A stretch of DNA of 33,854 nt from Gemmatimonadaceae bacterium (GTDB lineage: Bacteria > Gemmatimonadota > Gemmatimonadetes > Gemmatimonadales > Gemmatimonadaceae), in contig JANYFO010000239.1 in the NCBI GenBank assembly GCA_025362635.1, positions 1-33,854 of the forward strand, given 5' to 3'. Of the stretch, positions 4,188 to 28,722 are shown piece by piece; the stretch's first letter is position 1, and each line of letters opens with the position of its first letter. The notes under the pieces were generated by a model. The model did not search any database, was not told where the DNA came from, and saw only the letters and a program-made list of their open reading frames with translations. A program made the position numbers and the translations under genes.

Positions 4188-4817
4188 CTATACGGCAAGC
4201 ATAAACATTCGTACTTCCGGCGGCAGACTGACCGGGACAACAATGAGTTTCCCTTTCTCGCGAATTGATGAAATGGTCCGGGCAATTCCAACTACCTTTT
4301 CGTCCATCCGATATTGAAAAGCACGCTCAAAAAAACGAGGTGGCCGCTTGGATCTCAACGTACCATATCCAGCAACTTCAAACTCGTGCTGACCACGCCA
4401 GCTCGTTTGCGTGTACTTGGCAATGATTCCCTCGCCAAGAGACGTTCGTAGAATGGCGGTTCGATTCCAAGTGAGAGGAAAATCAACTGCGAATGTCTCT
4501 TGTCCTACTTTGATGGTTCGCTGTCTTGTTGCAGTTCGGCTAAATGCGTAACCAAGAATCTGATTTTGAGAATCTCTTACCACCAGACATACGCTGGTTG
4601 CTGAAGCATCCTGGGGGATAGCGAAAAGCATTTCAGATTTTTTCAAGTTGAATTTTTCAGCTTGCGCTGCAATGGTTTCCCATATTTGATCAGCCGTCAC
4701 GAGAAAATTTTCTTGTAAGAAAGATTTTCGATTGTTTAGGAGCATGTAGACTAGGCATCCGAAGCCCACAACCACGGCAAGCAAAAGGAAACCGAGGCTC
4801 GATTCGTTAACCGTCAT
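4188..4817 (-). CDS. hypothetical membrane-anchored protein, possibly tubby-C-terminal/LURP-one-like
   Basis: 209-aa ORF with N-terminal TM segment LLLAVVVGFGCLVYMLL; C-terminal pattern VVPVSLPPEVRMFMLAV. Fold assignment is by impression only. Confidence 0.65.
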   Translation of the reverse strand: MTVNESSLGFLLLAVVVGFGCLVYMLLNNRKSFLQENFLVTADQIWETIAAQAEKFNLKKSEMLFAIPQDASATSVCLVVRDSQNQILGYAFSRTATRQRTIKVGQETFAVDFPLTWNRTAILRTSLGEGIIAKYTQTSWRGQHEFEVAGYGTLRSKRPPRFFERAFQYRMDEKVVGIARTISSIREKGKLIVVPVSLPPEVRMFMLAV

Positions 4818-7780: not shown

Positions 7781-8242
7781 TTAAGCACGGAGATAGTCTT
7801 GTAGACGGCGGAGTGCGCGTTCGCGTCCAGCCACGGAGCGGCAGATGATGAGCACCGTATTGTCGCCGGCAATGGTGCCGGCAATATCAGGCCACGCTGC
7901 GTAATCGAGCGCTTCGGCCACGGGTTGTGCCCCCGAGGCGACGGTGCGGACGACGATCATCACCTGGACAGCCTCTACGCCAACGATGAATTGCGGGAGC
8001 ATGGCTTCAAGCCGTCGCGCGTCGCCGTCGCTGCTGGCCGACTCGGAAAACGTGTAGCGCGCCCGTCCCTTGTCGTCTGGGATCCGCGCCAAGCGGAGTT
8101 CGCGCAAGTCACGGGAGAGCGTCGATTGCGTCACGTCCCAGCCGCGTTTCGTGAGCTGTCGCCGCAACTCTTCTTGGCTGGCGACACGTTTCGCGGTGAC
8201 GATCTCGCGAATGGCGTTGTGTCGATCGATTTTATCGGTCAC
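7781..8242 (-). CDS. argR: arginine repressor
   Basis: DKIDRHNAIREIVTAKRVASQEELRRQLTKRGWDVTQSTLSRDLRELRLARI (ArgR N-terminal wHTH), C-terminal oligomerisation domain. The track start at 8290 lies inside the operator palindrome; GTG 8242 (VTDKIDR) is more likely. Confidence 0.9.
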   Translation of the reverse strand: MTDKIDRHNAIREIVTAKRVASQEELRRQLTKRGWDVTQSTLSRDLRELRLARIPDDKGRARYTFSESASSDGDARRLEAMLPQFIVGVEAVQVMIVVRTVASGAQPVAEALDYAAWPDIAGTIAGDNTVLIICRSVAGRERALRRLQDYLRA

Positions 8243-8260
8243 GCGATGTTCTCCGTAGTA

Positions 8261-8289
8261 TTGACAGCAGCTGAATGCAAAATTATGCA
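8261..8289 (+). promoter_or_regulatory. candidate sigma70-type promoter for argCBD
   Basis: TTGACA at 8261-8266, then a 17-nt spacer to TATGCA at 8284-8289 (weak -10), placing the transcription start near 8296. Confidence 0.4.
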
Positions 8290-8304
8290 TTCAGTGTGCA
8301 TAAT
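8272..8304. promoter_or_regulatory. putative ArgR operator in the divergent argR/argC region
   Basis: ATGCA-AAATT-ATGCA-TTCAGTG-TGCAT; also the inverted repeats TGAATGCA/TGCATTCA (8272-8279/8286-8293) and ATTATGCA/TGCATAAT (8282-8289/8297-8304). Confidence 0.75.
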
Positions 8305-10109: not shown

Positions 10110-11357
10110 ATGACTCCGTCAACCATGTCCATGCCCGTCATTCCCACGGCGTTTGTTCCGCCCGCTGCCGTTGCGCCGACCCTGTCCGTAACGTCGCTAC
10201 CGGCGATTGTCGGCACGTATAAACGGCAAGCGCCGGTGTTTGTGCGCGGTGAGGGCGTGTACATGTATGACGAGCACGGCGCGCGCTACCTCGACTTCGT
10301 GGCGGGAATCGCCGTGAATGCCCTTGGTCACGCGGACGCGGGCGTGCTACAGGCGATGCAAGAAGCAATGGCGACAGGATTGATACACACGTCAAACCTG
10401 TATCGCACCGAGCCTGGCGAGACGCTGGCGCAATGGTTTGTTGATCACTCGTTTGCGTCGAGTGTTTTTTTCGCGAACTCGGGCGCCGAGGCCAACGAGG
10501 GTGCGTTTAAGTTTGCGCGGCGTTGGGCGCGCACCACCAATCATCAGGCGAAGCACGAGATCATCGCGCTGCGCGGTGCGTTTCACGGCCGCATGCCAGG
10601 AACGCTCGCGGCCACGGATCGGCCGTCGTATCGCTTGCCATTTCGACCGTTGATGGGCGGTGTGCGCATTGTCGAGCGTGATTTGGAGGAGCTGAAAGTG
10701 GTGCTTGATACGGAAACGGCTGCTGCGGTTATTGTCGAGCCCATTCAGGGTGAAGGTGGTGTGCGCGTTGTCGATCCTGCGTTTTTGCGCGGCCTTCGTG
10801 CGCTGACGCGCGAGCGCAACGTGTTGCTCATTCTCGACGAAATTCAGTGTGGTCTCGGACGGACGGGCTCATTCTTCGCGTACGAGCAGTTGGGCTTTGA
10901 GCCGGACATGCTGACGCTGGCCAAGCCGCTCGCTGCAGGTTTGCCGATGGGTGCAATTCTCGTTAATGAGACCGTTGCACAGTGCATTCAGCCTGGTGAT
11001 CACGGTACGACGTTTGGTGGTGGTCCGTTCATCGCGCATGTCGCCAATCACGTCGTCCAGCGTTTGTCCGATCCCGCGATGCTCGCACACGTGCGTGAGA
11101 CAGGCGCGTGGTTTGGCGAACAGTTACAGGCGATGGCTGATCGCACCGGACGCGTACGCGCCATTCGCGGCACTGGGTTGATGTGGGGGATGGATGTACA
11201 CGAGTCGGCCGCGGCAATTATTCAGCGTTGCTTTAACAACGGGTTGCTGTTGGTCAGCGCTGGTGAACACACGTTGCGCTTCTTACCGCCACTTGTAATC
11301 ACGAAAGACGAATTGTCGCAGGGCCTCGCCATTCTGGAGACGGCACTCGTCGGTTGA
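10110..11357 (+). CDS. argD: acetylornithine aminotransferase (class III PLP-dependent)
   Basis: YLDFVAGIAVNALGHA, FANSGAEANEGAFKFARRW, LILDEIQCGLGRTGSFFAYE, PDMLTLAKPLAAGLPMGAI. Confidence 0.95.
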   Translation: MTPSTMSMPVIPTAFVPPAAVAPTLSVTSLPAIVGTYKRQAPVFVRGEGVYMYDEHGARYLDFVAGIAVNALGHADAGVLQAMQEAMATGLIHTSNLYRTEPGETLAQWFVDHSFASSVFFANSGAEANEGAFKFARRWARTTNHQAKHEIIALRGAFHGRMPGTLAATDRPSYRLPFRPLMGGVRIVERDLEELKVVLDTETAAAVIVEPIQGEGGVRVVDPAFLRGLRALTRERNVLLILDEIQCGLGRTGSFFAYEQLGFEPDMLTLAKPLAAGLPMGAILVNETVAQCIQPGDHGTTFGGGPFIAHVANHVVQRLSDPAMLAHVRETGAWFGEQLQAMADRTGRVRAIRGTGLMWGMDVHESAAAIIQRCFNNGLLLVSAGEHTLRFLPPLVITKDELSQGLAILETALVG

Positions 11358-11375
11358 TGGGCAAGGGTGGATGTT

Positions 11376-11464
11376 GGTAGGTGGTAGGTGGTAGGTGGTA
11401 GGTGGTAGGTGGTAGGTAGTAGTTGCAGTTCCCTACTCCCTACTCTCTACTCCCTACTCCCTAG
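11376..11464. repeat. inverted pair of 7-nt-period tandem arrays (G-rich then C-rich)
   Basis: Six exact GGTAGGT units at 11376-11417, a short centre (agtagttgcagtt), then CCCTACT CCCTACT CTCTACT CCCTACT CCCTAG at 11431-11464. Confidence 0.95.
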
Positions 11465-12005
11465 TTGCTTTGCATCTCCCTCCCCCTTCCGCGAACCCGA
11501 TCCCGCCGTGATGCTCGACTTCATCACAGCGCATCCGTTCGGTGCGCTCGTGACCGGGTCGGCGGAACACGAACTATTCGCGACACATCTACCACTGCTG
11601 CTTGACCGCACACGCGGTGCGCACGGAGTGCTGCAGGGGCACATCGCTCGCGCGAACGTACACCACGGGCGTGTATCGGACGCGTCCCCTGACGCGCTGG
11701 TGTTATTCACCAGTCCCGACGCTTATATCAGCCCGAGTTTTTATCCCACAAAGCAGCGGCATGGCAAAGTGGTGCCGACCTGGAATTACATCGCCGTGCA
11801 TGCGTATGGCCGATTGCGCTTTGTGGATGACCGCGATTTTATGATGCGGCATCTCAACGCGCTTACGGAGCAGCACGAAGAAGGTCGCGCGCACCCGTGG
11901 GCGATGCACGATGCGCCGCAGGATTTTCTTGAGCAGCTCGTGAAGTCCACCGTCGGTCTTGAAATCGAGATTACGAGACTTGAAGGAAAATGGAAGCTGA
12001 GCTAA
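11409..12005 (+). CDS. FMN-binding negative transcriptional regulator (PaiB-like), probably truncated or non-functional
   Basis: PSPFREPDPAVMLDFITAHPFGALVT..., PTWNYIAVHAYGRLRF, KSTVGLEIEITRLEGKWKLS*. The only in-frame start upstream of conserved sequence is a GTG inside the tandem array. Confidence 0.8.
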   Translation: MVGSSCSSLLPTLYSLLPSCFASPSPFREPDPAVMLDFITAHPFGALVTGSAEHELFATHLPLLLDRTRGAHGVLQGHIARANVHHGRVSDASPDALVLFTSPDAYISPSFYPTKQRHGKVVPTWNYIAVHAYGRLRFVDDRDFMMRHLNALTEQHEEGRAHPWAMHDAPQDFLEQLVKSTVGLEIEITRLEGKWKLS

Positions 12006-12116
12006 AATCGATCGTCAGAAGACATTGACGGCGTGATTGATGAACTCGCGCAGTCGCCGTCCGCAACGGAGCGAGACATCGCGGCGCACGTGCGCACGCA
12101 TCGTCCGCAACGATAG
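12006..12116 (+). pseudogene. in-frame C-terminal continuation of the PaiB-like gene beyond a premature TAA
   Basis: After TAA 12003-12005 the same frame reads NRSSEDIDGVIDELAQSPSATERDIAAHVRTHRPQR* ending at TAG 12114-12116. The family normally continues KLSQNR..; CAA to TAA would explain the stop. Confidence 0.8.
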
Positions 12117-27598: not shown

Positions 27599-28456
27599 TC
27601 AGACCTCATCGCGGGGACGAGATCCTAAGACGTAGTCCACATGCCAAACTCGATCATACTGACGGATGCCGATATCACGCACCAATCCGGCACTGAGCAA
27701 CATCTCGTGCGCTGGTTGAAGGACGCGTTGGAGGTGTGATGGATAACGTTGCGTGAGGGGAAGTTGTTCGGCGAGTCGTTCCAAGGGTATACGCCACGAC
27801 AGGCGTCCATCGGCCCGGGCTACCTCAAGCATGCGATACAATCGGCGCGCGACTGGTGAGGAGAGGGCGTGATAGCGGGCCGCCGACAGTGTGATGGTGT
27901 GACGCGCGGCAAGGTTGGTTCGCATCGTGGGGGACAGGATGACGCGTGCATCACCCGGTTCACCTGCCGCCAGATTGCCGAACAAGTGCAGTTGTTCGCG
28001 ATCGGCCACTCGTCGTCGCTGCACCGCGACGGACGAAAGAATGGTGAAGCTCACATCGGCCAAGCCGGATGAGGCCGACCAGTACGCTCCTACCGATTCG
28101 AGCGTGGTGCGTTCGAGACGAGCGAGGGCACCGCGCAGCTGCTCGTAGGTGCGTCCATCGGCGCGACGACCCATCGACCGCAAAAAGGCGTGCAAGGTAA
28201 AGGTGACGGTTCCGTCCGCGGGCGAACCGGCTTCGCTGTACCGATGCAGTAGTTCTATATAGACATCTTGATCAAACGTGCCGGGAAGGCGATCGCCGGC
28301 CGAGGGGATGACGCGCCAGCGCCCGCCATTCTCGCAGGTAAACGAGACGGGCGCATCATCCGCAGAATCGCTCAGTCGAAACAGCGGAAGTTCCTCGAGT
28401 GCTCGATCGAGTACTACTCCGCGAATCGCCGGGCGCCGACGCGCAGCGAGTGTCAT
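27599..28456 (-). CDS. plasmid-type replication initiator homologue (RepA/RPA-like)
   Basis: RWRVIPSAGDRLPGTFDQDVYIELLHRY...GTVTFTLHAFLRSMGRRADGRTYEQLRGALARLERTTLESVGAYW...ARYHALSSPVARRLYRMLEVAR: architecture of the replication initiator protein A family. Track start 28597; MTLAARR at 28456 chosen. Confidence 0.75.
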   Translation of the reverse strand: MTLAARRRPAIRGVVLDRALEELPLFRLSDSADDAPVSFTCENGGRWRVIPSAGDRLPGTFDQDVYIELLHRYSEAGSPADGTVTFTLHAFLRSMGRRADGRTYEQLRGALARLERTTLESVGAYWSASSGLADVSFTILSSVAVQRRRVADREQLHLFGNLAAGEPGDARVILSPTMRTNLAARHTITLSAARYHALSSPVARRLYRMLEVARADGRLSWRIPLERLAEQLPLTQRYPSHLQRVLQPAHEMLLSAGLVRDIGIRQYDRVWHVDYVLGSRPRDEV

Positions 28457-28722
28457 CAAGCGTGGAAGGTGAGCACCATGCGGCGAGAGCGCCAGCGCCT
28501 TGATGCATTCGGTGTGATGCGGCGCCCGAACGACCTGTTGCCGGTTAGCCGCTGGTGGGAGGGCTGCGTCGCACTGCGGGCCGCTTCGTTTGAGCAAAAA
28601 ACAGCAAATCCGCCAGTTGTCGGCGTGTTTCGTTGGTGTCCGTGTCCACGCGTCTGGTTGTTTTTCGGGACAATAGAAATAGCGGCGACCAACACAGCGA
28701 GCGCATTGTTTGCGTTGCTGCT

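Follow-up and report, generated by a model that had tools for sequence, protein, structure and literature searches.

A probable recent paiB pseudogene with two disabling mutations in a Gemmatimonadaceae genome

A paiB orthologue that has probably become a pseudogene in recent times, in a way ordinary in kind, lies in the window, the 33,854-nucleotide stretch of DNA analysed here, which is contig C269 of its source genome. The host, an uncultured bacterium, was placed in the Gemmatimonadaceae from its relatives. The nearest of these, G008 (sister contig G008:C12, L003; MAG Gemmatimonadaceae bacterium GL140_1, JANYHT010000033.1, L026), is 90% identical and collinear across the whole window, with an intact paiB orthologue at the same place. 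Against that orthologue the window copy carries two disabling mutations, a frameshift and a premature stop. The two lesions, the largely intact state of the other window genes and the absence of paiB from 12 of the 30 genomes of the genus together favour a recent pseudogene. The frame sits directly after the aminotransferase gene at 10110-11357 (argD-like, judged by eye) of an arginine-biosynthesis cluster, and the locus contains the following features.

11375-11422, no strand assigned: tandem array of the 7-bp unit TGGTAGG, 6.9 copies, between the argD-like gene and the paiB frame (TRF)
11430-11463, no strand assigned: tandem array of the 7-bp unit TCCCTAC, 4.9 copies, forming an imperfect inverted counterpart to the TGGTAGG array (TRF)
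11470-11511, plus strand: out-of-frame remains of the conserved N-terminus, which reads MYIPxPF in relatives (TTG CAT CTC CCT CCC ... in the window)
11486-11487, plus strand: first lesion, the loss of one base compared with G008 (blastn alignment with G008)
11511-12002, plus strand: PaiB-family body, open from ATG 11511 (PF04299 match, ORF list, 90% identity to G008)
12003-12005, plus strand: premature TAA replacing an invariant glutamine codon, the second lesion (alignments with homologues)
12006-12116, plus strand: untranslated homologous tail of 36 codons with the original TAG stop, corresponding to two C-terminal helices

The initial annotation had recognised the interrupted frame as PaiB-like, and this assignment is borne out by a match to PF04299 (FMN_bind_2; E = 2.6e-58, 196.8 bits, profile cut-off 22.4 bits) that starts at 11478 and covers profile positions 4-168 of 168. 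PaiB is a common type of split-barrel protein that binds haem or flavin. The ORF list gives a mechanical open frame at 11409-12005, from GTG 11409 to the TAA at 12003-12005. The intact G008 protein was modelled with AlphaFold (mean pLDDT 96, pTM 0.90), and a fold search with the model returned haem-bound PaiB 9VYC and PaiB 2OL5, followed by piperazate synthases and NohD, a relationship found by sequence as well. The window copy belongs to the same sequence family as PaiB / PAI 2 (PF04299; PDB 2OL5, haem-bound 9VYC), and the intact G008 protein has the same fold (TM 0.80-0.84 by query length, 35-36% identity) and likewise a C-terminal tail beyond K-L-S-Q-N. In contrast to these proteins, the window copy has no MYIPxPF in frame at its N-terminus and nothing from the invariant Gln onwards. 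The piperazate synthases (KtzT, PipS, LnzB, SbPZS) and the N-hydroxylamine dehydratase NohD have the fold and superfamily in common but are less similar, at 23-31% identity in the fold search. For PaiB, haem binding has been reported, together with a lack of N-N bond formation (PMC13274692).

As the initial annotation had noted, the TAA at 12003-12005 is followed by an intact tail (12006-12113) and a TAG (12114-12116), all in one frame. The tail, which encodes the peptides SSEDIDGVIDELAQSPSATER, matches the intact G008 orthologue at 29 of 36 residues. At the position of the stop, 19/19 Gemmatimonadales homologues have a Gln codon (CAG in 17, CAA in 2, with CAG in G008), a count that leaves out the window's own copy, and an equivalent tail is present in all Gemmatimonadales homologues. 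This Gln (Q179 in G008 numbering) is invariant in 40/40 aligned proteins from Gemmatimonadota, Pseudomonas, other Proteobacteria and an archaeal MAG, and the same alignment shows near-invariance of N180, R181, D185 and G188, which follow it. From the Gln, homologues at motif-bearing loci run on for 31-44 residues. The window copy departs from this family feature, an invariant Gln after K-x-S and a C-terminal part of 31-44 residues, by having TAA as the codon. We checked whether orthologues end at KLS, the outcome named as contrary to a lesion, and found no such truncated orthologue among the homologues examined; they keep both the Gln and the tail. Because the Gln is invariant and the homologues continue past it, the tail is a family feature, and the stop is specific to the window genome. 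A scan of reference genomes detected no further close relative carrying the stop.

The reading of the stop as a converted Gln codon agrees with these alignments. The proposed single CAA-to-TAA change covers just one of two possible routes: the nearest relative, G008, has CAG, which differs from TAA at two positions. As CAA is common in the source genome (59 CAA vs 79 CAG in 12 window genes, CAA 43%), CAG>CAA>TAA is an easy route; CAG>TAG>TAA is also possible.

The initial annotation missed a second lesion, the N-terminal frameshift at 11486/11487. In the alignment, G008 reads ...CTGTATCTCCCTCCCCCATTCCGC... where the window reads ...TTGCATCTCCCTCCCCC-TTCCGC..., and the loss of this one base puts the MYIPxPF N-terminus out of frame. 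Relatives begin ATG/GTG/TTG-TAC-ATC-CCC (MYIP), with M1, Y2, P4 and F7 nearly invariant across 40 homologues. The conserved N-terminal M-Y-I/V-P-x-x-F of the window copy is not in frame with the body, and the shifted frame runs into a TGA at 11509-11511 that overlaps ATG 11511. The start first placed at 11476 does not share the frame of the stop, the distance 12003-11476 = 527 not being divisible by 3, and translates as LPPPSANPIPP before terminating. A 13-codon frame from TTG 11470 (11470-11513) ends in the TGA overlapping ATG 11511 (TGATG), an overlap that could permit reinitiation into the paiB body. At the position where relatives start with ATG, GTG or TTG, the G008 sister gene (L003:1459-1461) reads CTG; TTG codons lie in frame upstream of this CTG, and GTG-ATG lies downstream. 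Given this CTG, the start was perhaps already weak or unusual before the split.

With the deletion at 11486/11487 disconnecting the conserved N-terminus and the stop in place of the invariant Gln codon, ribosomes would be expected to stop at 12003, and a product begun at GTG 11409, GTG 11508 or ATG 11511 would be missing the MYIPxPF start as well as both C-terminal helices. In the model of the G008 protein the lost part consists of two ordered helices, 183-194 and 199-210, in a block with pLDDT mostly about 97. A product lacking both ends would probably be unstable or inactive. Haem-binding and catalytic His, Asn, Thr and Lys residues have been named for the superfamily (PMC13274692), and by conservation the candidate cofactor residues should be H58, N63, T104 and K176 (G008 numbering), all located before the stop. 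The truncated product would thus keep the candidate cofactor residues and lose both ends.

The shorter protein, from ATG 11511 (or GTG 11508/11409) to TAA 12003, might still be used, with the tail now 3′ untranslated sequence. We regard this as unlikely. Between the window and G008 the body has dS 0.58, dN 0.055 and omega about 0.09; this lack of relaxation counts against a pseudogene, as a functional trimmed protein would give the same value. Identity of the body to outgroup L008 is 109/163 for the window and 108/163 for G008, and to outgroup L011 it is 105 for both; the two copies being equally far from the outgroups, the window branch shows no acceleration. Had the whole of this branch evolved neutrally, the body would be expected to carry about 90 non-synonymous changes, so that a recent break explains the low omega equally well. 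A trimmed functional gene is also consistent with the position of the candidate cofactor residues ahead of the stop (roles from PMC13274692, mapping putative) and with the absence of a standard start from the usual position in G008 as well. Against it stand the 40/40 invariance of Q179, the order of the tail helices in the model and the continuation past KLS of every homologue examined. The absence of acceleration in the body means either that the breaks are young relative to the G008 split or that a shortened core remains in use.

The tail has dS 0.19, dN 0.11 and omega about 0.61 between the window and G008, including a Gly to Glu change where 17/18 outgroups have Gly. The tails of intact pairs also evolve faster, and the excess over them is not significant (Fisher p = 0.25). 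Relaxed selection was dropped as a dating tool, the tail having too few changes. That the tail is still recognisable is attributed to a stop young relative to the G008 split. Of the explanations first offered for the conserved tail, a recent lesion holds up, with an intact collinear G008 orthologue, two breaks and a tail that is still homologous.

Sequencing error, another of those explanations, is possible for the stop alone and becomes less likely with a second lesion in the same gene. An error of assembly, base calling or strain mixture in the MAG is on balance improbable. The source genome (3.73 Mb) is a fragmented draft of 486 contigs, 90% complete with 3.8% contamination, and from a silent CAA precursor (43% of Gln codons in 12 window genes) a single wrong base would suffice. 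However, two separate lesions in one gene would both have to be wrong, and when the genes were compared one by one with G008, any other internal stop could be explained by upstream extension, by overlap or by a terminal shift of a few codons. Other uncompensated single-base indels in reading frames are few (4741, 28581) and fall in poorly conserved or start regions. The frames concerned, 4188-4817 and 27602-28609 (minus strand), each differ from G008 by such an indel; the former is a poorly conserved hypothetical frame with 69% identity over part of its length. A recent pseudogene is to be read with the further caution that the G008 start was perhaps already unusual and that the evidence comes from one MAG assembly.

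Readthrough or recoding of the stop, the remaining explanation, found no support. Programmed UAA readthrough or recoding giving a full-length protein is very improbable, even though the tail retains frame and homology. No anticodon UUA (for a UAA-reading tRNA) was present among the 41 tRNA genes found in a genome about 90% complete, and a suppressor tRNA or a reassigned UAA was rejected on this ground. TAA serves as a normal stop nearby, ending the 98%-identical gene at 7781-8290 at the same length in the window genome and G008. A tRNA missed by ARAGORN (C365:2603-2674) is by eye a Gln tRNA with a TTG anticodon. Moreover, no homologue has a stop at this site, which is sense Gln in 19/19 Gemmatimonadales homologues, and the N-terminal frameshift would need rescue too. 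It is likewise highly unlikely that efficient UAA readthrough yields the full-length protein or that translation is coupled from the short TGATG-ending upstream frame to a PaiB trimmed at its N-terminus. Either route would be unusual decoding in Gemmatimonadota, and real readthrough would be notable; no finding supports it.

Among the 12 of 30 genus genomes without paiB are G001 and G028, both 99% complete, and on the basis of these absences the gene is accessory and dispensable. No plasmid copies were found at megablast sensitivity, and the papers searched contained nothing relevant on Gemmatimonas pseudogenes or PaiB truncations. The locus resembles ordinary bacterial pseudogenes formed by nonsense and frameshift mutations in its two disabling mutations, its intact collinear orthologue and its patchy presence in the genus. 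Nothing sets it apart from them, and the window copy is young enough for its coding signal to be intact. The locus should be annotated as a probable pseudogene, and not as a short PaiB protein followed by an intergenic tail. It offers a clean case of recent accessory-gene loss and matters little beyond annotation.

The two 7-bp arrays directly upstream of the conserved start are expanded in the window and mostly absent from the sister G008, against which they align as insertions. A stem-loop formed by these repeats was considered and rejected, its stability being no greater than that of shuffles (z = 0.69). The repeat (CCCTACT)n is a dispersed 7-bp intergenic satellite in the source genome (11375-11463; L147-L154), with 40 exact matches to a satellite 19-mer, compared with 3 in G008 and 0-8 in other members of the genus. 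Several of the satellite copies inspected adjoin terminator-like hairpins, and some have GGGA-TAGGG arms flanking their other side.
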